Assembly: GCA_022072055.1 (NCBI GenBank)
Contig: JAJVIK010000010.1
Coordinates: forward strand, 62,001 to 126,000
DNA length: 64,000 bases
Direction: 5' to 3'
DNA from: a bacterium
GTDB taxonomy: Bacteria > Hinthialibacterota > Hinthialibacteria > OLB16
Below, piece by piece: positions 19,866-33,543 of this stretch. Positions within the stretch are counted from its first letter, which is position 1, and each line of letters begins with the position of its first letter. The position numbers and the translations under genes were made by a program. Under the pieces are notes generated by a model that saw only the letters and a list, made by a program, of their open reading frames with translations, did not search any database and was not told the origin of the DNA.

Positions 19866-20045
19866 TTCTCCAAGGGTACCACATCGTGGGAACACGGACA
19901 AACTGAGATGGACGGCCCGCTCATTTTCCAACGAATGCGGCGTGTCTGGCGTCACAACTTCTCAGCCTCGGCGCTTGACCCGCATCCCGCTTGAGCGAAA
20001 ATCCCTGTTGGTCCCACCGCCCAGGGAATCGAGGAGGCCACCGTG

Positions 20046-20921
20046 ATGTTCCCCACCCTTCTTTTGCTCCAGGTTTTCCAAGGTCTGCCCCAGGCCGCCG
20101 AGGTGGTGGTCCTTGCGCCCACGGATCCGGTTGCGGTTCAACTGTATGTCTTTGGCGAGGCCTCGCGCCACCCTAACGAGCAACTCGATGAGGTGCTTGC
20201 CACGGTCAAGCGTTGCGGGTACTCCCAAGTGCAGGCCTGGCTGGACTACTTCGATTCGGAAGAGTCGGCCAAGGTCTTGGATAACCTTCTCAAGAAACAT
20301 GGCCTGACACTCCCGGCGGCGTATTCGGGGGCCAACCTTCACGATCCGGAGCAGGCGGAGAAGGCTATCGCCTCGATCCTTTCCCGCGCGAAACGAGGCG
20401 CCGAGCATGGGTTGCGGGTTGTGGTGGTGAACCCCGACCCGATCCAGGGTGAAAAGACCGATGACCAACTCATGACCCAAGCCAAGAACCTCGACCGCTT
20501 GGGGAAGGCGCTGGCGGAGTTGGGGCTTCGTCTCGCCATTCACCAGCACGCCCCCGAGATGGCCTCCGGCGCGCGGGAGTGGTATCACATGCTTCGCAAC
20601 ACGGACCCGGAGCGGGTCTTCTTCTGTCTCGACACGCACTGGGTTCTACGAGGAGGGCAAGACCCCTATCAGCTCCTTGAGGACGCCGGGAACCGTGTGA
20701 TTGATCTGCACCTGCGGAACTCCACCGGAGGGGTCTGGGCCGAGGAGCTTGGCGATGGGGACATCGATTATCGGAAGGTCAGCGAGATCCTGGAAAGAAT
20801 CGGGTACAGAGGATACCTGACCGTGGAGCTCGCGCACGAAAAGGGCACCCAGGTCACTCGCTCACTGGAGGAGAACCTGAAACGCAGCCGCGAGTATGTA
20901 CGGGAGGTTTTTGGGAGGTAG
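20046..20921 (+). CDS. sugar phosphate isomerase/epimerase-like TIM-barrel protein
   Basis: A 291-residue member of the xylose isomerase-like/AP endonuclease 2 barrel family. Metal-site residues are suggested by IHQHAPEM near 170, FCLDTHW near 205, HLRNS, and YLTVELAHE near the end. The ATG at 20046 has AGGAGG eight bases before it; a GTG just upstream is also possible. The first 20 residues are hydrophobic (FPTLLLLQVFQG), so it may be exported, unlike most of the family. It converges on a Gfo/Idh/MocA gene with only 16 bases between them; such enzymes often act together on inositol-like or keto sugars. Confidence 0.82.
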   Translation: MFPTLLLLQVFQGLPQAAEVVVLAPTDPVAVQLYVFGEASRHPNEQLDEVLATVKRCGYSQVQAWLDYFDSEESAKVLDNLLKKHGLTLPAAYSGANLHDPEQAEKAIASILSRAKRGAEHGLRVVVVNPDPIQGEKTDDQLMTQAKNLDRLGKALAELGLRLAIHQHAPEMASGAREWYHMLRNTDPERVFFCLDTHWVLRGGQDPYQLLEDAGNRVIDLHLRNSTGGVWAEELGDGDIDYRKVSEILERIGYRGYLTVELAHEKGTQVTRSLEENLKRSREYVREVFGR

Positions 20922-20937
20922 CGCGCCTCCATGAAAT

Positions 20938-22239
20938 TCAACTAATCACCGGTAGTTCATACCCCTTGCGCCGTGGGCGCGAGCGCAGCGCGTTGGCCTC
21001 CTCATCGCCGACAAACGACTCGGCCGCCGGGTCCCACTTGAGGGGGCGTCCAAGCTCCCGCGCGATGTTGATGAGGTGGCAGATCACCGAGGAATTGTGA
21101 CCGACCTCCGCGCTCGCGTTGGGTTTCTGTCTCGTGCGCATGCAATCCACCCAGTTCTGGAGGTGCGGTCCGGCGACACTGGCGTAGATCGCCTTGTCAT
21201 CCGGTTCGGGCGCGCCGTTGATGAGTTCCGGTGGATCGCTGACCAACTTATTCCGGTTGATCTCCAGTCGCCCTTTCTCCCCGATGAAGATTCCTCCCAG
21301 ACCGGGCCCTTCCTCCAACCCATACTCGCATTTCACAACAACCCCGCTCGCATAGTGCAGCGAGACCTTGGCGTTCGGACCGGGATCCTCCAGGAATCGA
21401 ACCTCGGTCGGGGTGGTGTCATCGGTTCCCAGGGCGCGTTGGACCTGGTCAAAGGCGTGGGTCCCCCAGCCGGTGACCCCGAAGCTCAGGCCGCCGCCAT
21501 CATAGGCGCGCCATTTGCCCCATTTGTCCAGGCCAGGATGCAGGTTCTTGGTGTAGGGGACGAGCTCGGTTTGATGGCACCACATGTCCCAGTTGAGTTC
21601 CTCGGGGACCATCTCTGCCTCGCCCGGACTCCACTCCTCGGGTCCAATGAAATTCGGGCAAAGCACAGTGTGGACCTTCCCAAGCGCGCCGTTCTTGACC
21701 AGATCGCTCCCGAAGTTGTCGATGGGGACCGAGCGCTGCTGGGTGCCGACCTGGAGGATTCTCTGGTAGCGCTGCTCGGCGCGGACCAAATACCGGCCTT
21801 CTTCAATTGTGAGGGTTAGGGGTTTCTCGGAGTAGACATCCAGCCCGGCCTGCATCGAGTGGATGCAGATGAGCGCGCGTGCGTGGGTGGTGGTGGCGAC
21901 AATTGCGGCGTCGAGCTTCTCCTTCTCGAACATTGCGCGGTAGTCCTGGTAGTGGGGGAGTTTTTCGGTGGCGAGATCGGGGCGCTTTTCGGCCACCCAC
22001 TTGTTGTATTTTCGACACTGGCGGAGGTCACAATCCGCGAGCGCGACCAGTCTGACATCTTTGGGGGATTCGTCGAGGAGTGAATGGGCGCGTCCGCCGG
22101 GACCGATCAGTCCGATGTGGATGCGATCATTGGCCCCGGGGCCTTCGGGCCCGGCAAGCACCCGGCGTGGAATGATGAGCGGGGCGACTGTGAGGGAGAG
22201 GCCAACGGCACCCTGACGAAGGAAATCGCGACGGCGCAT
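20938..22239 (-). CDS. Gfo/Idh/MocA-family oxidoreductase, Tat-exported
   Basis: A 433-residue exported oxidoreductase. A twin-arginine signal MRRRDFLRQG opens the protein, followed by the Rossmann strand IHIGLIGPGGRAHS near 40-53. SEKPLTLTIEEGR carries the EKP lysine, and VGTQQRS and GWGTHAFDQVQ are further family marks. It is the last gene of the minus-strand run starting at 33153, 105 bases after the PhyH gene. It is a distant paralogue of the protein at 8535-9944. The substrate is probably a sugar derived from whatever the operon degrades. Confidence 0.9.
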   Translation of the reverse strand: MRRRDFLRQGAVGLSLTVAPLIIPRRVLAGPEGPGANDRIHIGLIGPGGRAHSLLDESPKDVRLVALADCDLRQCRKYNKWVAEKRPDLATEKLPHYQDYRAMFEKEKLDAAIVATTTHARALICIHSMQAGLDVYSEKPLTLTIEEGRYLVRAEQRYQRILQVGTQQRSVPIDNFGSDLVKNGALGKVHTVLCPNFIGPEEWSPGEAEMVPEELNWDMWCHQTELVPYTKNLHPGLDKWGKWRAYDGGGLSFGVTGWGTHAFDQVQRALGTDDTTPTEVRFLEDPGPNAKVSLHYASGVVVKCEYGLEEGPGLGGIFIGEKGRLEINRNKLVSDPPELINGAPEPDDKAIYASVAGPHLQNWVDCMRTRQKPNASAEVGHNSSVICHLINIARELGRPLKWDPAAESFVGDEEANALRSRPRRKGYELPVIS

Positions 22240-22344
22240 GGGGAGAAACCTCCTAAACGATGGCTAAATGGTACGATATTAACAGATTATGATCGAACGA
22301 TCCATCTGATTTGTTTGAGAAAGACTCTCGTCTTTTGGTCCCCC

Positions 22345-23142
22345 TTATCCCCTCACCTCGGTTGGGAACGGCTGCATCTCCGGGAGGCGGATGCGCTTCC
22401 CATGCACCATCAGGCCCGGCCTGCCGATACTCTGACCGGCGACTTGGATGTTCTCCGGGTCACGGTACCCGACCCGCACCAGGCGGCGGATCTTCTCGGT
22501 TCGATTCACATAGCTCCCATGCACCGTGAAAATGTTGAAGCACACCACATCCCCACGCTGGGCCGGAACAGGAACCGTGTCCTCTAGGCTGTACCGGTCC
22601 GTCGGCAAGTGTGGGGTGCAGGGTCCATCGGGAGTCATCGTGATGTGCGGCAGATAGCCCGCCTTGTGCGAGCCCGCGAGAAAGCGAATCTCACCGTTCT
22701 CGTGGCAGGTGTCATCCAGGTGCACCAGCACATCCACATAACGGCCGTCCGTGTGCTCATAGAAGGCGTTGTCCTGGTGCATCGGGAAGGGGTGCCCGGT
22801 CTCCGGCGGCTTGGCGTGGAGGGTCGAATGGTGGAGCTCCACGTTGGGACCAAGCAGGTCCGCCATCGCCTCGCTGAGCCTCGCGTGAGTCACCGCGCGC
22901 AGCCACGCCTCGGAGTAGAAATACAGATCGTGGATCGAAACCAGCTGGGACTTCCGTTCGGTCTCCTCATCCATGAGGACTCGTCGCCACGGACCGGTCC
23001 AACCCATGTGACGCTCCGCCCAGTTCCGGATGATGAACTCCAGGTCCTCCTCCATCCGGTCCATCTCCTCGCTGGAGAACACCTGGGGTATGCGGAGGTA
23101 ACCCTGGTCGTGGTAGAACTCAATTTGCTCCCGGCTCAGCAT
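22345..23142 (-). CDS. phytanoyl-CoA dioxygenase (PhyH)-family oxygenase
   Basis: A 265-residue Fe(II)/2-oxoglutarate oxygenase. The iron triad is visible: H122 and D124 in MHQDNAF, and H208 in FTVHGSYVN; the C-terminal Arg for 2-oxoglutarate lies in RRLVRVGYRDP. LVHLDDTCHENGEIRFLAGSH is a typical strand pair. PhyH relatives of this group hydroxylate many small molecules, not only phytanoyl-CoA. It has no signal peptide. It sits between the GH43-like gene and the Gfo/Idh/MocA gene, so a role in processing a released sugar or osmolyte is plausible. Confidence 0.9.
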   Translation of the reverse strand: MLSREQIEFYHDQGYLRIPQVFSSEEMDRMEEDLEFIIRNWAERHMGWTGPWRRVLMDEETERKSQLVSIHDLYFYSEAWLRAVTHARLSEAMADLLGPNVELHHSTLHAKPPETGHPFPMHQDNAFYEHTDGRYVDVLVHLDDTCHENGEIRFLAGSHKAGYLPHITMTPDGPCTPHLPTDRYSLEDTVPVPAQRGDVVCFNIFTVHGSYVNRTEKIRRLVRVGYRDPENIQVAGQSIGRPGLMVHGKRIRLPEMQPFPTEVRG

Positions 23143-23230
23143 GGACTAAGAAAGCTCCTTCCTTTTTCATGGACGGGATGCCCCGCGCGGTCATTCCGGA
23201 CTCCAGCTTGAGGGCAATCCTCAAACCCTG

Positions 23231-24181
23231 TCAAGGTTCAAGGGGCGCCCTTTCCAGCGCCTCCACCACCCCTCGGTCCACCCCGATCACCGTGCCGTGG
23301 CGAAAGTCCTTCGGGAATTTCATCTTGTCCGAGACATCCTCCCAGGCTTTGAGGTCCCTCGATTTCACCGCGCCGTAGAACTGGGGGTCGGCATAGTGAT
23401 CAAAGTACACAAACCACTCCTCTCCGATCCGGATGGCGGAGGGTCCCTCCACCCAATCCCGTGTGAACGGCTCCGTGCAAGGCCCGTACGGACCCTCTAC
23501 CTGGGCGGAGGTTGCGAGGCGTAGACGCTTCTGACCGAGACGTTCGTCCTTGAACAGGAAGCGGTAGAGGTTGTGGTGGCGAAACAGGACGCCATCGATG
23601 GTGTTGAACCCGGGATCGTGAAAGACCCTCGGCGGCGAAAAGTCCTTGAAATCGACCGTGGTGGTGAAATACGCCCGGTGATTCAGGCCGCCATCGTCCA
23701 GGGGTTGGTCGGGAAACAACCCCTCGACCGTGGTGGAGAAAAGGATATACCACTTAGCGGAAGCGTCGTCGAAATAGAGTTCCGGCGCCCAGGTGTTCTT
23801 CGCGCCCTTGACCTCGCGATTGATCGGGACATAGCGCTGCTCGCTCCACGAAAGGAGGTCCGCCGAGGAGGCGTATCCGAAACCGTCATCCATCCACCCC
23901 GTGGTCCAGACCATGTGGAACCTTCCGTCCGGACCAAGGCGCAAGCTGGGATCGCGCATCAGCTTGGAGCCGACTTGTGGGGCAAGGAAGGAGCGATCGT
24001 CGCGAAGCGGCCTCCACGCGTAACCATCGTCGCTCGCGGCGAGGTGAAGCCCATCCTCGCCATTGCCACGAAAGGAGGTGAACAGGAGCACTGGCGCTTC
24101 CGATGGTTCCCCCGACACCGCTGCTGGAAAAAGGCTCATCAGAGTTGTTGAGGCGATCATGGCCGCCAAGAATAATCGCAT
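23231..24181 (-). CDS. secreted GH43-like five-bladed propeller glycosidase
   Basis: A 316-residue secreted protein with a Sec signal (RLFLAAMIASTTLMSLFPAAVSGE). The rest shows propeller blades typical of GH43/GH117-like enzymes: DGLHLAASDDGYAWRPL, SKLMRDPSLRLGPDGRFHMVW, TWAPELYFD, and VEGPSAIRIGEEWFVYFD. The Asp of RDPS, the Glu of WAPE and the Glu of EGPS fall where the catalytic and supporting acids of GH43 lie. It starts six bases after the sulfatase stop. Expected role: removing arabinose-, xylose- or anhydrogalactose-type residues. Substrate not determined. Confidence 0.75.
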   Translation of the reverse strand: MRLFLAAMIASTTLMSLFPAAVSGEPSEAPVLLFTSFRGNGEDGLHLAASDDGYAWRPLRDDRSFLAPQVGSKLMRDPSLRLGPDGRFHMVWTTGWMDDGFGYASSADLLSWSEQRYVPINREVKGAKNTWAPELYFDDASAKWYILFSTTVEGLFPDQPLDDGGLNHRAYFTTTVDFKDFSPPRVFHDPGFNTIDGVLFRHHNLYRFLFKDERLGQKRLRLATSAQVEGPYGPCTEPFTRDWVEGPSAIRIGEEWFVYFDHYADPQFYGAVKSRDLKAWEDVSDKMKFPKDFRHGTVIGVDRGVVEALERAPLEP

Positions 24182-24187
24182 CGACGC

Positions 24188-25711
24188 TCACACCTCCAGC
24201 GTGTCGTTGACCTTGGCTTGCCAAGCGCGAATCCTCGCGGTCAAGCGCGAAATGACCTCCGCGTGTTTCCTCGAGTCGAAGAGGTTGGTTGTCTCACCCG
24301 GATCCTCCGTCAGATTAAACAACTGACTCTTGTCGCCCCTGGATAACACCAACTTCCAGCCATCCGGAGAAATGACCGTGCGGGACTGAGACTCCATCGC
24401 CGCCTTGAGATCGCCGGCGGCGTCCGCTCCGACATGAAAATCGGCGGTGTTTCGCGGGCGATTCCACTCGATGAAAACATGGTCTTCTTGCGCCGGGTTG
24501 CCCTTCATCAGTGAAACCAGGCTCTGTCCGGGAAGGCTCTCTTCCCGCGGATACCCCATCAACTCCAGGAGTGTCGGGACCAGGTCGATCTGACTGACCG
24601 GTTGCTCCACGACCTGCTGGGTTCGACCTCGAGCAGGGATGCGCAGGAGGAGGGGGATTCCGACCGATTCCTCGTAGCTCACGGTCTTGGTGAGGAGGCG
24701 ATGCGACCCCATCATGTCGCCATGGTCGCTGGTGTAGACCACGATGGTGTTGTCGGAGAGGCCAAGTTCCTCCAATGTGGACAGGATCCCTCCCACGCTG
24801 CGGTCCACCTGGCTGACCAGCCCCCAATAATTGGCGATCAATCTTCGCCAGTCGGCTTCGGTCTTGAGCGGCAGTTTGCCGAACCCGTTGGCAAGAAAGG
24901 CATCCCGCATGGCGCGGAACCGCAGTGGCTCGTTGTCCTCCAGGAGGTCCTCGAAGTTACCCGGAACGGTCACCTCGGAGAGCGGGTGCAGGTCATCCAG
25001 CGGGCCATGGAAGGGCATGTGGGGTTCGAGGTAATTCACGTGAAGGATGAACGGTTCGGTCTTGTGGCGGCGCAAGAAGTCGCGCGCCTTGAGTTCAAGG
25101 AAACTGGGCTTGCAGTGTTCGATCTTGAGATTTGAGGCGAACCCCCGGCTGTAATTCCCGTTCTCGGTGTCCGGTTTGTACCCCAATTCGTTCAGGAACG
25201 CCCAGTACGCGCTCTTCGCGTTGGGGTCGCGGTCGGAACGGTAGTACTTGGAGTAGCCATCCTCGATGGCCGCCCATTCCTCAAATCCATGTTGGGCGAA
25301 GACCTCATCCCCCAGGTGCCACTTGCCGAAATACCCCGTTCGATAGTCGGGATCATTCATTATTTCGGGGAAGCAACGGGCGTCGTCGGGCAGAGGGATG
25401 TTGTTGGATACACACCCCGTTGCGTGGGGCCAGCGCCCGGTCATGATGCTGGAGCGCGCGGGGGTGCAGACCGGCTGAGTGTCATAGGCGCGTCGGAACA
25501 CGACCGACTCGGAGGCCAGCTTGTTGAGATTGGGGGTCTTGATGCGAGGGTTCCCATACGCCGCCATCGTGTCGGGGCGTTGTTCATCGGTCCAGAGAAA
25601 GAGCAGGTTGGGCTTTCTCGCCGGCGCGGAGCGCGCGCCTCCCGAAAAACCCGCGGCGAACACGGAGGCCGCCTTGAGGAAGCTCCTTCGGGACACAGAC
25701 TGGCGTCTCAT
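24188..25711 (-). CDS. Tat-exported sulfatase
   Basis: A type I sulfatase that removes sulfate esters after its active-site Cys is converted to formylglycine. The 507-residue protein begins with a twin-arginine signal (SVSRRSFLKA) and shows NLLFLWTDEQRPD with the first metal Asp, then VCTPARSSIMTGRWP with the modified residue C82 in the CxPxR motif. VVYTSDHGDMMGSHRLLTK carries the other metal ligands. The modifying enzyme is not in the window. It lies 74 bases after the Asp-rich secreted protein gene and six bases before the GH43-like gene, implying a sulfated polysaccharide substrate. Confidence 0.94.
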   Translation of the reverse strand: MRRQSVSRRSFLKAASVFAAGFSGGARSAPARKPNLLFLWTDEQRPDTMAAYGNPRIKTPNLNKLASESVVFRRAYDTQPVCTPARSSIMTGRWPHATGCVSNNIPLPDDARCFPEIMNDPDYRTGYFGKWHLGDEVFAQHGFEEWAAIEDGYSKYYRSDRDPNAKSAYWAFLNELGYKPDTENGNYSRGFASNLKIEHCKPSFLELKARDFLRRHKTEPFILHVNYLEPHMPFHGPLDDLHPLSEVTVPGNFEDLLEDNEPLRFRAMRDAFLANGFGKLPLKTEADWRRLIANYWGLVSQVDRSVGGILSTLEELGLSDNTIVVYTSDHGDMMGSHRLLTKTVSYEESVGIPLLLRIPARGRTQQVVEQPVSQIDLVPTLLELMGYPREESLPGQSLVSLMKGNPAQEDHVFIEWNRPRNTADFHVGADAAGDLKAAMESQSRTVISPDGWKLVLSRGDKSQLFNLTEDPGETTNLFDSRKHAEVISRLTARIRAWQAKVNDTLEV

Positions 25712-25785: not shown

Positions 25786-27579
25786 CTACTTCAGCAAGTC
25801 CAAGCAGGTTTGATAGTCGCCCCTTGAATAGGCGCTGTCCAGAAGGGAAAGAGCGGATGCCATCTCCCAGGCCTCGGTGGATTCGGTTCGGATTTCCATC
25901 TTGGACCGCGGATCGACCGGGGGGAGCGCATCGAGGCGCGCCTTGACATCGGTTTGCACCTTGTCCCGATAAGCGCGAAAGAGTCGCTCACGGATCAAGT
26001 CAAGCAGATAGCGCTTTTCGTCCGGGCTGATTCGGTCGGAGATCGCCTCTCGAATTCGCCGAACGGTGGGGTCATCCGGAAGCGGATGGAGCTGCTCCAG
26101 TCGAGCGATCAGCGCCTCATTCAGACGGATTGCCTCAGGCAGGACCTCCTCGGTGAAGAAGGCGCGGAGTCGCTTCTTGTCCAGCGCGAGATCATGGTTC
26201 CCGATCACCGGGACCACCGCGACACGGTAAGGCGTTGAGGATTCCTGAAAGTAATACTCCCAGCGGTCGAAGTAGCCGTTTTCGTCCGTGTCGAACAGGC
26301 GGATTTCGCCCATGGGTTCGGTGTTTCCGATATGGCCCACCTGTTGCCACCCCTCGCGCGCGCCCTTGAGGTGGATGCGACGGTCCACTGGGCTGAAATA
26401 CAACTCCCGCTTCCTCGAAGGGTTGGGATCGTACTCACGGCGCACATTCCAATCCTGGATCGGTCCGCCGGTGTTGTGCATGACCCGCCGGCTCCAAGTC
26501 CAGAAAACCCCTTCCCAGCGACGGTCAGACTCCGGCCAAGTCGGGTCGCCGATCTTCATGCCCGCATCCTCGAACTCCCGCCAGGTGAAGCCGGTGGCCT
26601 TGGCGGAGTACTTCTCGCAGATTCCTCGGACCGCCTTGTGGGGAGCGCAAATCGTGGTCTTGGGGCTTCGACGAAGCGGCTGGAAATGCTTCATGCCGGT
26701 GAACGAGTAAGGGGTCCCACCGACCAGGTTGAAACCCATTTCGTAGTGGAGCGGCCTCTCCTTGGAGGAGAGGCCATCGATGTCGAAGCTGTAGCGGATG
26801 TTGACCACTCCAGGGTTGCGCAGTGACGGGTAGAAAGGTCCCTGGTAGCGGTCCTGGCTGTTGGCGTAGTCGGGGTCGCTCTGCTCGGAGAAATCAAGCG
26901 GGGCGGCGCTGAAGCGCGCCACCACTTCGGACTCCCCATCCCCATCCGTGTCAAAGAACGCGAAGGGGCACTCGGAGATCGGCAACCACTCCTCGCGCTC
27001 CGGATCGTAGCGGTTCATGTAGATCATGTTGTCGCCGTACGGGTCGCTCGCGAAGAAATCGCCGGTGTATTCATAATCGCGCAGATCCCACATCGCGCTG
27101 TCGTCATCCAAGTCGATCCCCATCCAGGACCGTCGGAGCTCGCCCTCCACAAAATAGCGAATGTCCATCTCATCGGGATCGTTGTCCCCATCCGAATCGA
27201 TAGTGTCCACCATGCGGTCCACCGTGCCGTCGGCGTCATAATCGACCACATAGCAGTCGCTATCGGCATCCCCCTCGGTCCCAGTCAAGTCGCCGTCATC
27301 ATCCAGAACCCACACGAGCATGACCTTGTTTGAGTCGCGCTTGCGGACCTCCTTGCGGAGGAGCATCTTCCCTTCTCCTCCGGCTTCCTTGGCATACGCG
27401 GACTGGAGGACCAGATGCTCCCCGGGCGAAAGATTGCTTGCCTCGGGCCACCACGGTTTGTCCGAAAGGGAAAGCTTTCCGCCTGGGCTCATTCGGGTTT
27501 CGGTTTCCCACCAGGGGTCCTCGGCGAAGGCCGCCGCCGAGAGGATTAGCCCAAGCAGGAAAATGGCAAGACGTGTCAT
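25786..27579 (-). CDS. secreted Asp-rich calcium-binding-like protein, short paralogue
   Basis: A 597-residue protein of no family I recognise. It has a Sec signal (RLAIFLLGLILSAAAFAED). Residues 100-150 carry EF-hand/thrombospondin-3-like loops (LDDDGDLTGTEGDADSD, DYDADGTVD, DSDGDNDPDEM), with further loops FFDTDGDGESE near 215 and FDTDENGYFDRWEYYF near 435. The C-terminal third is helical and charged. Segment by segment it aligns with the first 620 residues of the 868-residue protein at 29097-31703, but it lacks that protein's final domain. Its start overlaps the stop of the amidohydrolase-like gene by four bases. Likely periplasmic or surface-bound, possibly binding a polymer with calcium; function unknown. 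Confidence 0.8.
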   Translation of the reverse strand: MTRLAIFLLGLILSAAAFAEDPWWETETRMSPGGKLSLSDKPWWPEASNLSPGEHLVLQSAYAKEAGGEGKMLLRKEVRKRDSNKVMLVWVLDDDGDLTGTEGDADSDCYVVDYDADGTVDRMVDTIDSDGDNDPDEMDIRYFVEGELRRSWMGIDLDDDSAMWDLRDYEYTGDFFASDPYGDNMIYMNRYDPEREEWLPISECPFAFFDTDGDGESEVVARFSAAPLDFSEQSDPDYANSQDRYQGPFYPSLRNPGVVNIRYSFDIDGLSSKERPLHYEMGFNLVGGTPYSFTGMKHFQPLRRSPKTTICAPHKAVRGICEKYSAKATGFTWREFEDAGMKIGDPTWPESDRRWEGVFWTWSRRVMHNTGGPIQDWNVRREYDPNPSRKRELYFSPVDRRIHLKGAREGWQQVGHIGNTEPMGEIRLFDTDENGYFDRWEYYFQESSTPYRVAVVPVIGNHDLALDKKRLRAFFTEEVLPEAIRLNEALIARLEQLHPLPDDPTVRRIREAISDRISPDEKRYLLDLIRERLFRAYRDKVQTDVKARLDALPPVDPRSKMEIRTESTEAWEMASALSLLDSAYSRGDYQTCLDLLK

Positions 27580-28349
27580 TTCGGAATCCCTTCCTGACCG
27601 GCGAAATCAAAAATCTCCCCCGCGTTCCTCCACAGAATGCGCTCCTTTTGCTCCTCCGGAATCTCCGCGGTTCGGACCTTGAGTGGGCCGACGGCGGGAA
27701 TCTGAAGCGGATTGCAGCTCCCGTGGAGCAGGCGATGCGCCCCGATCTCCTCGGAGACCTTGCGAATCTCCTCGAAGGCCATCATCGCGGAGGTTTCGAC
27801 CAGGGTGTTGGGGCGCCTTCTCAAGACATCCGACGCGGATTGGAGCTCGAACAGATAATTGATGGACCCGAGGATGAAGGTTGCGTTGGGGTGCTTTTCG
27901 GCGAGGGCGCCGATCTTGGCAACCGGGAAGGTTGGAAACCGCCAGCTCATCACCAGGCGGTGGGGAATCAGAACGGGAACACGATGCTCCCCGCACCAGT
28001 TCAACAGTTCCTCGATAAAGGGCTCCTCCAGCGGATCGTAGGAGTGGTTGAGCGGGAACAGTTTGACCATGCGCGCGGGGCAGGCGGAAAGCTCCTCGGC
28101 GTATCGGTCTCTTCCACTCGCGTATGGGGAGTAGGTGAGCGCGGGGAGCAATCGGTCCGCGTGCCGTTCGACCGCCGCGAGGGTCTCGGCATTCCCCTCG
28201 GCGGGATCCATGAAGACCCCCCGGAGCGAGCAGACAAACGCCTTGTCGATCCCGCAACGGTCCATGTTGCGGAGGACCGAGCCAACATCGGTTCCCTCCA
28301 TCGCCCAGTAGGGCCAGGTTCCGAAATACGAGTTGATGTCAACGATCAC
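27576..28349 (-). CDS. amidohydrolase_2-like TIM-barrel protein lacking the usual metal ligands
   Basis: A 257-residue amidohydrolase-fold protein. It begins MIVDINSYFG, where catalytic relatives have a DCHVHIG-type HxH motif, and reads LLHGSCNP where they have GSD. The barrel pattern otherwise is intact (VPVLIPHRLV, TFILGSINYLF, ERILWRNAGEIFDF). So the first two His ligands and the late Asp are both replaced, and it is probably inactive or works by another route. It starts one base after the stop of its catalytic-looking neighbour (28351-29091) and overlaps the next gene by four bases, so the two amidohydrolases are made together and could form a mixed complex. Confidence 0.82.
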   Translation of the reverse strand: MIVDINSYFGTWPYWAMEGTDVGSVLRNMDRCGIDKAFVCSLRGVFMDPAEGNAETLAAVERHADRLLPALTYSPYASGRDRYAEELSACPARMVKLFPLNHSYDPLEEPFIEELLNWCGEHRVPVLIPHRLVMSWRFPTFPVAKIGALAEKHPNATFILGSINYLFELQSASDVLRRRPNTLVETSAMMAFEEIRKVSEEIGAHRLLHGSCNPLQIPAVGPLKVRTAEIPEEQKERILWRNAGEIFDFAGQEGIPK

Positions 28350-28350
28350 T

Positions 28351-29091
28351 TCAGCCTCGCATCCCGAGCAGCCGCTCGATGTTTCCGTGAAGGATCAGGT
28401 CCTTCTCCCGATCAGTCAAATTCGATTCGGTGATCTTGGCCACCGCGAGGATGGGATCGAGCAGCGGCATGTCCGAGCCGTACAGCACGCGCTCCGCCCC
28501 GACCTCGCGGACCGCGAATTCGACCATCCCGTTGTCGAAGGTGGAGCTGGTCGTGTCGAGATAGATGTTGGGATGGGCCTTGGCGGCGGCCACCGCCCGA
28601 TGCCAGTCGCCTTGAGCCTGCGGGCAACATCCCATATGAGCGTTGAAGATCACCAGGTCCGGGACTTGGCGGCAGAGGGAAAGGCACTCTTCACCGGTGG
28701 AATGCGCCAGAACCGGAACGCGCAGCTCCGCGGCCTTCGCGAGGAGCGGGAGCATGAAGGGGTCGTCGATGACCTGGAGCGGCGGGACCGAATAGATCTT
28801 GAGTCCCCGGAAGCCATGGTCGTTCACATACCGCTCCAAATCCTCCGCCACCCAGTCGCCGTGACGGCCCGTGCAGACCGTGTAATAAGGGATGAAACGG
28901 TCCAGGTGGGCCGAGACTTCTCTCCGAATCCACTCGTTTCCCGCCTTGATGTCATAGACCAGGGCGGAGAAATCGGTGACCATCATGCGGTCAATGCCCG
29001 CGCGGTCCGCCGCGCGCAGCAGCAGGGCGGCATCCGCCTCGACATGGTAGTACGCGGCCTTGCCGATATGGACATGGCAGTCCACGATCAC
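28351..29091 (-). CDS. metal-dependent amidohydrolase (amidohydrolase_2 family)
   Basis: A 246-residue TIM-barrel hydrolase. The GTG at 29091 is chosen because GAGG lies eight bases before it and the product then begins MIVDCHVHIG; a GTG at 29100 and a longer open frame to 29310 are less likely. HxH is at residues 6 and 8, then VPVLAHSTGEE, LVIFNAHMGCC, and RVLYGSDMPLLDP with the catalytic Asp, ending HGNIERLLGM. Relatives include decarboxylases and lactonases (ACMSD- and PDC hydrolase-like). It follows the 868-residue secreted protein gene by only five bases. Cytoplasmic (no signal). Confidence 0.87.
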   Translation of the reverse strand: MIVDCHVHIGKAAYYHVEADAALLLRAADRAGIDRMMVTDFSALVYDIKAGNEWIRREVSAHLDRFIPYYTVCTGRHGDWVAEDLERYVNDHGFRGLKIYSVPPLQVIDDPFMLPLLAKAAELRVPVLAHSTGEECLSLCRQVPDLVIFNAHMGCCPQAQGDWHRAVAAAKAHPNIYLDTTSSTFDNGMVEFAVREVGAERVLYGSDMPLLDPILAVAKITESNLTDREKDLILHGNIERLLGMRG

Positions 29092-29096
29092 ACTGT

Positions 29097-31703
29097 TCAC
29101 CTCAAAGAGGCCGCGAGCCCCCGAATCCCCTCGAAGAAATCCTCGCCGGTGGGACAGCAGTCGAACCTGTTCCCGCGCGGCCAATTGCACTCGAGGTGGT
29201 AGGTGGTCGGCTTGTCCTTCTCGATTCGGAGCACCACTTGGTTCTCCAATTCCGAGCCCCCCATGCGCTGGAAACGCTCGGCCGGGAAGGCAACGCCCAT
29301 TTCGATCCAACCGATGAGTGGTGTCTGAAAACCCCTTACAGAGAAAGCCCCGAGCGCGCTGTCCAGGCGGAGGGTCTCTTGGGGGAGTTTGGATAGACCG
29401 ATTCCGAGCTCCAGACGGTCCTCCGTCTGTCCGCCGGTAACCGCCACCTCAATGGGCGAGTCCGCTCTGCCCGCCAGCGCCGAACAGAGGAACCGCACTG
29501 TGTAAGGCGAATCCTTCGGGCCAACTCCTTTCGCCACTTGCTCAATCACAATCTTCTCGGGGGACTCGGAAACCAGTCGCTTGGTGAACTCGATATCCCC
29601 CTTGCCCTCGGGGGCTCGGACAGGAAACGCTTCCCCATTCACATACAAGGTCACCCCTCCGCATCCGGGGCCCTTCCCGACCAGGAGGGCATCGATCCCC
29701 CATTCGGTCTCTTCGTGGTAGCTCACCGGCCCAATCGTGGGGAGGATTAGGGTATCCCCCTTCTTGCCAAAGAAATCGAACTGGCCCCAGTAAACCCGAT
29801 AGCAGACCTTTTCCGATTCCCATCCGATGTTGGGCGGAATCCAATCTTGGGCCCAAGCCACCCGCTTCGGCGCAAGCTTGCGAAGCATCTCCTCTCGAAA
29901 GGCTCCAAGGTCCGCGAGCGGGGCGGTCAGTTGAAACTCGCGTTCCAGCACCCGCGCCATGGTCGGGTAATCCCCTCTTCCTCTCGCCTCGGCAAATTCG
30001 GTCCAGATTTCCGCGTCCGAGTGGGCGGACTTCAGAAGGTGAATCAGCACATCCTTGCGCACATCGAGAAAGAAGCGCAGCGACTCATCGCTTGCAAGGA
30101 GTTCGCGGGCAAGCTCCGGGGAGGCGGAGGCGATCTCCATCTGGGCGCTTAGCTTCGCCAAAGCCGGATTGTCTGGAGTTGTCGGCGCGGCAATGGAAAG
30201 CGCCTGCTCAAGGCGTTCGTGCAGGGTGAACAGGTCCGGCACGCTCCGCGCGATCTCTCCTTCGACCATTGAGTTCAGAACACCCCAAGACCATTCGGCA
30301 TCCTCCGGAGTGACAGCGGTCGCGCGCCAGGAATCCTCCGCTTGGCCATCTCCATCGAGGTCCAAGTTCCACTCATCGAGGAATCCATCCGAGTCCGTGT
30401 CTCTCATCTCATAGCGAAAATCGGCCTTGCGGTCGAGATCGGCGTCCACTATCAACCAGGCCTTGTCCGCGCCGCGCAGATGAACGCGGTGGTCGGTGGG
30501 ATGAAAGTAGACCCGAATCGGCGCGGTGGGCTTGAGGACCAATTCATAGCGCTTGTTGAGCTGCCCGCAGCTCGGACCGCCGACCTGCTGGAAATCCGGA
30601 TTTCCATCGGCGATCACCCCTTCCCAGCGCTCGTTTTGATCCTCGTAACGCTGGCCATCAATATTCCGGTCGATCTCATCCCAGGTGAGCATCATGCGCT
30701 CCCATGTGATCCGGGAAGCGAATTCCGGGGCGAGCTCGCGTCGAAGGTATGGGCCCGCGCGGAACCCGCGCAGGGAGCGATAGGTGGACTCGCGCTCCGA
30801 GAAGCTGACCTCGGAGCGGCCCCGTCCGCGCCCCTCCGGGGTCCAACTTGCGCCAGGCGCCCACGCCGTGATCGAGCAGTCGAAATCCCGGGGGGACTCC
30901 CGGGTCCCATCGTTGTCCGTGTCAAAGCTCCAGCGAATCGCCTCCACCTCGTTCTCGATCCCGGAGATCCGCAGAACCTCCTCGGTCACCCCATCCCCAT
31001 CGCGGTCGTAGAACAGGAACGGGTTCTCGAAAAAGGAGACCCAGCGATCCCCGGAAAGCGGAAGCGCGAAGGCCACGAAGAGCTCATCGCCGCCGAAATG
31101 AGTCCGGAACTGGCACAGGGTCTGGTCGTAGGTGTAGGCGATGTCATGCCAGAGGAGGTTGTCATCCCCCACATCCAACCCCCACCAGACCCGAATCGTC
31201 GGCTCGTGGAAGTAACTGTGGGTGTCGCCCACGAAATACATCCCCATCTCATCGACATCGTTGTCGCCGTCGTGGTCGCTGTAGTCGAGGACCACATCCA
31301 CCGTGCCGTCGGCCTTCCAGTCGGCGACATAGAGGTCGCTGTCCGTGTCCGGCTCATCTCCCTGCTTCAGGTCGCCATCCTCATCCAGGACCCGAACCAG
31401 GACCGGGCGCATCGCCTCAGGGTGACGCAGCGCGGTGTCGATGTACCAGACCTCATCCGCGCGCCCATCGCCATTCGTGTCAAACCAGTGGCGCTCCCCT
31501 TCCTTGCCGGATTTCACTTGGGCATGGCGCGCGGCATCCGGAACCACCGCGTTCCCGAAGACTTTTTCGAAAAGACGTTGCGTGTCGGACTTGGCCAATG
31601 TTTCGGCGCATGAACCGTTCTGAGCGGTCAGTCCCGGAAGGGAAAGCGCCACCGCGAGCCAGACAAGGGCCATCCGAGCCACGTGGTTTGGTTGGTTCCG
31701 CAT
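29097..31703 (-). CDS. large secreted Asp-rich protein with C-terminal DUF4861-like domain
   Basis: An 868-residue secreted protein (signal RMALVWLAVALSLPGLTAQN). Calcium-loop-like repeats recur: DTNGDGRADEVWY near 70, DEDGDLKQGDEPDTDSD near 105, DHDGDNDVDEM, YDRDGDGVTEE, FDTDNDGTRES, and DTDSDGFLDEWNLDLDGDGQ near 440. The C-terminal 240 residues, starting near 628 (CYRVYWGQFDFFGKK, SYHEETEWGIDALLVG), look like a DUF4861 beta domain of carbohydrate-processing loci. The first 620 residues match the paralogue at 25786-27579. It lies 22 bases after the membrane protein gene and five before the amidohydrolase. I infer a polymer-binding or lytic role; no catalytic residues can be named. Confidence 0.8.
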   Translation of the reverse strand: MRNQPNHVARMALVWLAVALSLPGLTAQNGSCAETLAKSDTQRLFEKVFGNAVVPDAARHAQVKSGKEGERHWFDTNGDGRADEVWYIDTALRHPEAMRPVLVRVLDEDGDLKQGDEPDTDSDLYVADWKADGTVDVVLDYSDHDGDNDVDEMGMYFVGDTHSYFHEPTIRVWWGLDVGDDNLLWHDIAYTYDQTLCQFRTHFGGDELFVAFALPLSGDRWVSFFENPFLFYDRDGDGVTEEVLRISGIENEVEAIRWSFDTDNDGTRESPRDFDCSITAWAPGASWTPEGRGRGRSEVSFSERESTYRSLRGFRAGPYLRRELAPEFASRITWERMMLTWDEIDRNIDGQRYEDQNERWEGVIADGNPDFQQVGGPSCGQLNKRYELVLKPTAPIRVYFHPTDHRVHLRGADKAWLIVDADLDRKADFRYEMRDTDSDGFLDEWNLDLDGDGQAEDSWRATAVTPEDAEWSWGVLNSMVEGEIARSVPDLFTLHERLEQALSIAAPTTPDNPALAKLSAQMEIASASPELARELLASDESLRFFLDVRKDVLIHLLKSAHSDAEIWTEFAEARGRGDYPTMARVLEREFQLTAPLADLGAFREEMLRKLAPKRVAWAQDWIPPNIGWESEKVCYRVYWGQFDFFGKKGDTLILPTIGPVSYHEETEWGIDALLVGKGPGCGGVTLYVNGEAFPVRAPEGKGDIEFTKRLVSESPEKIVIEQVAKGVGPKDSPYTVRFLCSALAGRADSPIEVAVTGGQTEDRLELGIGLSKLPQETLRLDSALGAFSVRGFQTPLIGWIEMGVAFPAERFQRMGGSELENQVVLRIEKDKPTTYHLECNWPRGNRFDCCPTGEDFFEGIRGLAASLR

Positions 31704-31725: not shown

Positions 31726-33153
31726 TTAGGAGAGCGCGCGCTCGCGCCTCAGCCACGCCAAGGCGGTCAGCCCCAGGGCGCAGATTGTGAAGATGATTCC
31801 GTTTGGAGTCCGGCCGGTCCACTCCTGCCACGGCCAGGGGTAACGGAAGAAGGCAAAGTTCAGGAAGAAATATGTCCAGGTGGAAAGCAGCAGGGCCTTC
31901 GCGAGAATCGGGCGTGTTTCACCCTCGGACTGCCCGCGACCGTATGCCCACACCGCAAAGGCGGTGGCGAGAGCCAACGGAATCACCAGATAGAGGAGCC
32001 ATCCGGGCACTGCTCCGATCACATTTTCCTCGTAGACCAGGTTGCGGATGGTCTTCCCCACGATCGGAGCGAGGGTGATGGGCATGATTTGGAGGTAAGG
32101 CCACCATCTTCCGCCAATTACCCCGACCAAGGGGATGATGCCCATGAACAGGCCGAAATCATAAACCGCCTCGAGCCTCGGATAGGGAAGGAACTCCGAT
32201 CCCATGAGCAGCGCGAGGTGGAGAGCAACCAGGGTCCACTCCACGCCACCCGGCAGAAGCTCCGAGGGGCTTTCCGCGCCTGGCCTGATCTTGTCGCGGT
32301 TCAGCCAAGCCCCGAGGCCCAGCATCCCGCCCATAACCGCTCCAAAGGTGGTTTCCATCATGTTCCACCAGTTGATGTTGGGATCGAGGGTGGCCCAGAT
32401 TCCCTGCTGAAAAGCCTCCCGGTTCCAGGCGTGGTAGGCCTGAAGACACTGCCCCATGGGAAACCCCAGCGCGCCGCCCAGGAATCCCCACAGAGCCAGG
32501 TTGCGCGCGAGACGGTCCCCGCGACGCCAACCGGCATAGGCGGTGACCGTGATCCACGCGAAGAGCAAGCCGCCCCAGACCTCGGGCCTCGGTTTCAAAT
32601 CGGCGTCCGGCAGCCAGCGCCAATCACTGGAGAAGTAGATTGAGGGAAGCTTCTTGTTGGCGGGGTCAAAGGGGGAGTTCAGGAGCCACTCGCCCAGGAA
32701 GCACATCACAATCATGCCGAGCATGAGAAGCAGGATTTCCTTCCATCGGTACCGAAGCCCGCCAAGCCCCATGCCGAGAAAGGCCCCGGCGAACCCGATC
32801 CAAATCCCGCCCTTGATCGCGAGTCCAAGCAACCCCCAACGCAACGCCGCCCAGTTGCCGACCAGCGCTTGGTCGTGGGTGAGGCCGACTGTCTGCCCAT
32901 AGGTCATGGAACCCCCGAAGCCGATGGCGACGGTTCCGAGCGCCACCGCGCGGAGGATGGGAAGCGGCGCGGTTCGCGGGCAGAGCAGGACCGCCAGTGT
33001 CAGGCTGACCAGGAGACCGGCGATCATGGCGCCGGTTTCGTGGCCATACTGGCCACGAATTCCCCAGCCCATGCCACCGGCCATCGCCGCGAACAGGACC
33101 GGCTGCCACCAGGGGGTGTTTGTCGCTGGGGTGCTGGATTCGGAGGTGCTCAT
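31726..33153 (-). CDS. multi-pass inner-membrane protein of unknown function
   Basis: A 475-residue protein with about 12-13 hydrophobic segments beginning at PVLFAAMAGGMGWGIRG and running to the end (IIFTICALGLTALAWL). Gly-rich helix starts, GWGIRGQYGHETGAMIAG, and a conserved-looking loop around 165-215 with SIYFSSDWRWLPD are its main marks. No transporter family was recognised. The ATG at 33153 has GGGAGGG seven bases before it; the frame runs on to 33318. It is the first gene of the nine-gene minus-strand run and could import the product of the secreted enzymes, but that is inference. Confidence 0.78.
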   Translation of the reverse strand: MSTSESSTPATNTPWWQPVLFAAMAGGMGWGIRGQYGHETGAMIAGLLVSLTLAVLLCPRTAPLPILRAVALGTVAIGFGGSMTYGQTVGLTHDQALVGNWAALRWGLLGLAIKGGIWIGFAGAFLGMGLGGLRYRWKEILLLMLGMIVMCFLGEWLLNSPFDPANKKLPSIYFSSDWRWLPDADLKPRPEVWGGLLFAWITVTAYAGWRRGDRLARNLALWGFLGGALGFPMGQCLQAYHAWNREAFQQGIWATLDPNINWWNMMETTFGAVMGGMLGLGAWLNRDKIRPGAESPSELLPGGVEWTLVALHLALLMGSEFLPYPRLEAVYDFGLFMGIIPLVGVIGGRWWPYLQIMPITLAPIVGKTIRNLVYEENVIGAVPGWLLYLVIPLALATAFAVWAYGRGQSEGETRPILAKALLLSTWTYFFLNFAFFRYPWPWQEWTGRTPNGIIFTICALGLTALAWLRRERALS

Positions 33154-33543
33154 TGCATGTCCCTCCCGGGTCGGTCTGGAGTTCACACATCTCGGATGGG
33201 GGCGATGGAGGACCCTCCGATGAAGGCGCCAGTATGAAGGATGGACCGCCTTGGGGGAAGCATCGACCGGCAAAACGAGGGAGAAAATGTTTCTCTCCAT
33301 TCGACTTGGAAAGGGCAACCTTGCGGCGAACGATCCGTGCCGCGACCGTGAGGGAGCGGTCCTGGCCCCCCGACCGCTTGCTTACGCGCGCGGCTCGGAA
33401 ACTCCCCCCGCTCGCACCGGAGCGCAGCTCATGGGCGAGCAGGGGGCGGACACGGGCCGGTGAAATAGAAATCCGCGCTCATTCATGGCACGCTTGTCCG
33501 GTGGAGCGATGAATCCACGAACTGAGCAAGACTGGAGAGTTCC
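33154..33543. other. 390-base intergenic region between divergent genes
   Basis: Apart from the palindromic repeat at 33337-33396 I see no gene here. Promoters for the minus-strand operon and for aroC must lie within it, but no clear -35/-10 pair was found. The open frame that crosses the repeat (33251-33463) is a translation of the repeat and not a gene. Confidence 0.6.
33337..33396. repeat. REP-like imperfect palindrome
   Basis: The left arm at 33337-33361 (GTGCCGCGACCGTGAGGGAG, then CGGTC) pairs with the right arm at 33372-33396 (GACCGCTTGCTTACGCGCGC, then GGCTC) over about 20 of 24 positions, with a 10-base C-rich loop. Such REP/MITE-like sequences occur scattered between genes in many environmental genomes, where their translations are sometimes miscalled as small proteins. 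I found only this copy in the window. Confidence 0.55.

Follow-up and report, generated by a model that had tools for sequence, protein, structure and literature searches.

Two anciently diverged members of an undescribed family of predicted exported proteins, linked to an amidohydrolase pair and to sugar-processing genes

We analyzed a 64,000-nucleotide stretch of bacterial DNA (hereafter, the window) and found that two of its proteins, A and B, belong to a single undescribed family of predicted exported proteins, within which they diverged long ago. Protein A (25786..27579, minus strand; 597 aa) consists of a signal peptide, a WW/KPWW segment, a beta domain rich in Asp and containing predicted calcium loops, and a C-terminal helical domain (approximately residues 468-597), with no DUF4861 domain. 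Protein B (29097..31703, minus strand; 868 aa) has a signal peptide, an A-like beta core with the helical domain, and a C-terminal DUF4861 domain (Pfam PF16153, approximately residues 626-860, E 1e-19). The latter match scores 71.2 bits, above the gathering score of 22.3, and covers profile positions 128-367 of 380 only; A was not recognized as a DUF4861 member in the Pfam scan. The additional domain of the longer protein is thus as originally predicted, and so is the novelty of the core, because no relative of A was found in Pfam, NCBIfam or PDB sequences. No paper mentioning DUF4861 was found in a literature search. Signal peptides or lipoboxes, read from the N-termini of A and B (a lipobox is found on A in some Phycisphaerae), suggest that both proteins are exported.

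The paralogy of A and B, originally proposed on the basis of a common order of segments, was confirmed by several comparisons. BLASTP aligned the two proteins with 130 bits (E 1e-35, 28% identity, 559 columns), compared to 35.8 bits for the best of 200 local window-shuffles of B. Using families of A and B built from related genomes, hhalign yielded a probability of 100 and an E-value of 8.9e-51 over 489 columns; with larger families, the E-value was 1.9e-57. The original prediction was to be abandoned if the short calcium-loop motifs alone were shared. This hypothesis was ruled out by masking the Asp/Asn/Gly-rich loop columns in both families: the probability was 99.3 and the E-value 2.1e-20 over 400 columns, and the masked alignment extends into the C-terminal helical region. 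It should be noted that the masked A/B pair, compared as single sequences, produces a weak match (35 bits, E 9e-6); therefore, the case for paralogy depends on the family profiles. As judged from these sequence comparisons, A and B are full-length paralogues.

Orthologues of A were detected at 16 loci in a contig search (46-58% identity), in metagenome-assembled genomes labelled as Omnitrophota, Hydrogenedentota, Phycisphaerae, Pirellulales, and other Planctomycetota; the relatives found are from metagenome assemblies. A model of B, which also detects A and DUF4861, matched 11 of 14 genomes from the phylum of the window, 29 of 68 Hydrogenedentota genomes, and 8 of 298 genomes in a sample of Phycisphaerae (the class of genome G014). 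All seven Hydrogenedentota genomes with A also have B, and the same is true for the sampled Phycisphaerae genomes with A-type matches. Among 12 genomes chosen for the presence of A, B was found in 11; in the exception (G023), A is cut at the contig end. A maximum-likelihood tree of the core strongly supports the split between A and B, and each clade spans several phyla; the duplication is therefore old. According to this tree, A and B represent two ancient clades in the phylum of the window, Hydrogenedentota, and Phycisphaerae. The DUF4861 domain is carried by one partner of the pair, not always the same partner. For example, in a divergent family from the phylum of the window (f4; loci L054, L055, and L063), the A-like protein has a full-length DUF4861 domain (E 2.7e-57) and its B-like partner is devoid of it. 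One genome (G015, L101-L104) encodes five B paralogues and a single A.

In the window, the gene order on the minus strand is B-AH2-AH1-A, where AH2 (28351..29100) and AH1 (27576..28349) are members of the Amidohydro_2 family (one Pfam match at 2.3e-13, the other at 5.5e-28); both outer reading frames and the two amidohydrolase-family genes between them had been correctly called in the original prediction. The junctions range from a 4-nt overlap to a 1-nt gap: the stop codon of B overlaps the GTG start of AH2 (GTGA), AH2 and AH1 are separated by 1 nt, and the TGA of AH1 overlaps the ATG of A (ATGA). The start of AH2 is probably the GTG at 29100, and not the longer-ORF start at 29310. Judging by these junctions, the four genes constitute an operon. 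AH2 has kept the HxH motif, the later His, and the Asp, and these metal ligands (H[VA]H, AHM, and G[ST]D) are conserved in eight orthologues, as expected of a catalytic Amidohydro_2 protein. AH1 passes the Pfam score despite the loss of its ligands and is pseudoenzyme-like: in 8/8 orthologues, HxH is replaced, the later His is lost, and the Asp is changed to C, A, G or similar, a pattern unlike that of a catalytic member. AH1 is probably a degenerate, non-catalytic paralogue of AH2. In one genome (G008), an intact amidohydrolase pair is encoded without linkage to A or B. Neighbouring intact and ligand-less Amidohydro_2 genes with the same loss pattern are also present in Hydrogenedentota (L140, 7206-8806; L141, 3154-4642). 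Close to its N-terminus, the ligand-less member carries a WPY/WPF motif.

Downstream of A, after 74 bp, lies a gene for a sulfatase with a Tat-type signal (24188..25711, minus strand); sulfatases also occur near some other B loci, but at only 6/40. The sulfatase of the window is followed downstream by a secreted GH43-like protein (23231..24181, minus strand), which is not conserved at other A/B loci. Upstream of B, there is a membrane protein (31726..33318, minus strand; the true start is probably internal), with no Pfam match and no conservation beside other B genes. The sulfatase, GH43, PhyH, Tat Gfo/Idh, and membrane proteins were rejected as members of the unit because, some sulfatases excepted, they do not recur in the vicinity of other A/B genes. 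The region 20043-25711 downstream of A, with a xylose-isomerase-like TIM barrel, Gfo/Idh, PhyH, GH43-like protein, and sulfatase, resembles a glycan-degradation cluster and is not conserved with A/B.

A, B, and the amidohydrolases are also linked in another genome from the phylum of the window and in Phycisphaerae. Four Phycisphaerae/Planctomycetota genomes have the order A-(SSF)-Gfo/Idh-class III aminotransferase-B-AH2-AH1, preceded in three of the four by an FCD-type GntR gene; at L089, no SSF gene was detected, and an 812-aa protein with no Pfam match intervenes. Within the phylum of the window, the order is SSF-Gfo/Idh-aminotransferase-B-glucuronoyl-esterase-like-AH2-AH1-A at L053, and the same without A and the esterase at L057. 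Loci of the divergent family (L054, L055, L063) have SSF, Gfo/Idh, and a DegT aminotransferase in place of the class III enzyme, so that one protein is exchanged for another of similar chemistry. Neighbours of 40 B loci, which are not independent because the genomes are related, included SSF (12), Gfo/Idh (16), class III aminotransferase (12), glucuronoyl-esterase-like protein (12), AH2 (9), and AH1 (8). Conversely, each neighbour type was found in 0/20 control segments, a control of modest size (segments of 20 kb chosen arbitrarily from six of these genomes and from relatives), and in 0/8 A-only loci, except for amidohydrolases at one of them. B genes are thus repeatedly found beside a sugar-type transporter and enzymes that convert sugars, as expected of a sugar-catabolic operon.

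The arrangement is not uniform, however. Hydrogenedentota have B and A without the amidohydrolases; in this phylum, many of the B loci also have no sugar-gene neighbours, nor does any A locus located apart from B. Therefore, duplication around the same enzymes, which was originally suggested to mark a functional unit, is not the general arrangement; the unit itself is supported by the recurring linkage, whereas the sandwich is one of several layouts of the old clades. In the genome of the window, orthologues of SSF, Gfo/Idh, and the aminotransferase are found together on another contig (57-68% identity). Directly after them (contig C1, L111, 10638-13871) is the gene for a 1078-aa protein without a Pfam match, which is adjoined by the gene for a protein with alpha-L-fucosidase and esterase domains.

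Outside the loops, the residues invariant (at least 95%) across both clades include W333, E335, RWEG (354-357), G371, N378, R380, E382, Y394, D399, R401, and H403 (A numbering), i.e., the pattern W-x-E ... RWEG ... G(G)P ... N-x-R-x-E ... Y-x-x-P-x-D-x-R-x-H-L. Loose Dx[DN]xDG-type motifs number 8 in A and 10 in B, compared to a mean of about 0.55 and a maximum of 4 in shuffled sequences, suggesting that both proteins bind calcium. The recommended HMM and structure prediction was informative for B (DUF4861 and a sandwich match) but gave no significant fold match for A. The confidence of the two AlphaFold models is limited (pLDDT 73.6 and pTM 0.60 for A; 64.0 and 0.55 for B); both have many strands followed by a helical domain, and B adds a C-terminal all-beta domain. 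In PDB sequence searches, nothing was found for A, and just a calmodulin (E 0.86) for B. Foldseek found no reliable fold match for the A model; Teneurin/Rhs/Tc-type and DnaK folds were discarded as noise (probability at most 0.23, TM about 0.1), and a propeller fold is possible for A. The best coherent match of the B model was GH63 YgjK (3w7x, 5.6e-4, probability 1.00), with GH36, GH94, and polysaccharide-lyase proteins below it and TM by query length of 0.12-0.16. The alignment length and the fold suggest that these matches fall in the DUF4861 region. A sandwich fold of the DUF4861 type is often an accessory domain. No glycoside hydrolase or polysaccharide lyase catalytic domain was found in A or B in Pfam and PDB sequence searches.

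In two other bacterial phyla, genes for relatives of A and B adjoin those for a sugar transporter, sugar dehydrogenase, aminotransferase, and esterase. The set therefore most likely belongs to an unmapped pathway for the use of a complex sugar; a literature search found nothing combining the enzymes of the operon. We consider A and B to be secreted, calcium-stabilized proteins that process or capture glycans and are encoded in a sugar-catabolic operon, with a probability of about 0.5. A and B would constitute the extracytoplasmic part of a carbohydrate-catabolic unit, in which Ca2+ would make the beta domain rigid and the two proteins may act on a complex glycan, either by binding and cleaving it or by presenting it. 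This glycan would probably contain an esterified uronic acid or an amino sugar. The released small sugar would be imported via the SSF symporter, for which SiaT and SGLT symporters are closest (best solved match SiaT, 5nv9). The Gfo/Idh dehydrogenase, IolG-like (best solved match, inositol dehydrogenase), and the PLP aminotransferase (class III, GSA-aminomutase-like) may interconvert keto, hydroxyl, and amino forms of the sugar; the direction of these steps is not readable from sequence. AH2, with its degenerate partner AH1, might hydrolyse a ring (lactone or cyclic amide) or decarboxylate an intermediate. From these solved relatives and the CE15-type, glucuronoyl-esterase-like neighbour, we infer, as a weakly held guess, that the sugar is perhaps amino or acidic; the glycan as target and the catabolic direction are likewise suggested by the neighbours. 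Hydrogenedentota have been described as carbohydrate-using biofilm members (PMC10866078), which fits the sugar-catabolic reading and is no test of it. In a bolder and rather speculative version, A and B would be the founders of a new family of carbohydrate-active enzymes, calcium-dependent and with a new fold, that act on a uronate- or amino-sugar glycan, the cytoplasmic route involving transamination and a heteromeric active/degenerate amidohydrolase.

Against the explanation preferred here are the lack of a recognized catalytic domain in A and the common core and of a significant fold match for A. The limited confidence of both models, the often accessory nature of the matched sandwich domain, and the Hydrogenedentota loci devoid of sugar-gene neighbours also count against it. 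The missing catalytic family match, the many calcium-type loops, the lipobox on some A proteins, and the potential of a DUF4861-type sandwich to be a binding or accessory domain would also fit non-catalytic, calcium-dependent binding or scaffold proteins (SGBP- or adhesin-like glycan capture), the enzymes being the neighbouring esterase, sulfatase, and other proteins. We regard this as a tenable minority view, since the polar/aromatic cluster (E, R, W, H, D, N) that is invariant outside the loops in both clades is more active-site-like than scaffold-like. Binding proteins are usually less conserved across phyla than A is.

Calcium loops would also be expected in structural envelope or matrix proteins (S-layer-like, calcium-stabilized), in which case the neighbours would serve the synthesis of cell-surface amino sugars and not catabolism; DegT aminotransferase with Gfo/Idh, as at L054/L055, is also known from nucleotide-sugar synthesis, and PseC/WecE-like matches were below the cut-off. 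However, the SSF uptake symporter, the FCD-GntR regulator, and the glucuronoyl-esterase-like neighbours indicate uptake and breakdown, and no glycosyltransferase or nucleotidyltransferase is present among the annotated neighbours, making this option improbable. Finally, linkage between A and B is missing from several genomes, and Hydrogenedentota loci have no amidohydrolases, as would be observed if widespread secreted paralogues were near metabolic genes by chance. Such incidental linkage is largely refuted and highly improbable: the same gene sets are found in two phyla, coding junctions overlap, the controls are empty, every Hydrogenedentota genome with A has B, and close AH1 orthologues in the phylum of the window (E below 1e-100) are confined to five genomes, all with A, and are absent from genomes without A.

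These results define an unrecognized exported family that is conserved across several little-known phyla. Its association with a definite sugar-processing gene set makes the function of the family testable. Should A or B prove to cleave a glycan, they would represent a new enzyme family, and their pathway would be new for organisms regarded as recyclers of biofilm and plant polysaccharides. A second and lesser puzzle is the conserved pairing of a pseudo-amidohydrolase with an active enzyme. The degeneration of AH1 extends the original prediction. The same holds for the wider unit, in which an SSF symporter is joined by an oxidoreductase resembling inositol dehydrogenase, by an aminotransferase, and, in many cases, by a glucuronoyl-esterase-like protein.

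Compared to known systems, A and B share with calcium-blade, FG-GAP, and other proteins with the Dx[DN]xDG calcium-loop motif (reviewed by Rigden et al. 2011, PMC3123361) several loops between predicted strands and predicted export. Matches to the FG-GAP, EF-hand, and dockerin families, however, are non-significant (17 members scanned; best E-values 0.013-0.014, in single members), and Foldseek returned no propeller, nor any match at E 0.001, for A. The common core of A and B (about residues 50-600) falls outside PF16153. B, probably in its DUF4861 region, resembles the super-beta-sandwich of GH63 YgjK, GH36, GH94, and polysaccharide lyases; however, A and B have no catalytic (alpha/alpha) barrel, their helical part being only about 130 residues. 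AH2 is similar to the metal-dependent lactonases/decarboxylases of Amidohydro_2 (PF04909) in family match and metal ligands, whereas AH1, its neighbouring paralogue, lacks the ligands in all eight orthologues. Polysaccharide-utilization-type loci of Planctomycetota and relatives bring together secreted proteins, sulfatase/GH43/esterase, a sugar symporter, and sugar-converting enzymes, and A/B loci are similar to them in this respect; unlike those loci, they are centred on an undescribed secreted pair with SSF, Gfo/Idh, an aminotransferase, and an active/degenerate amidohydrolase pair.
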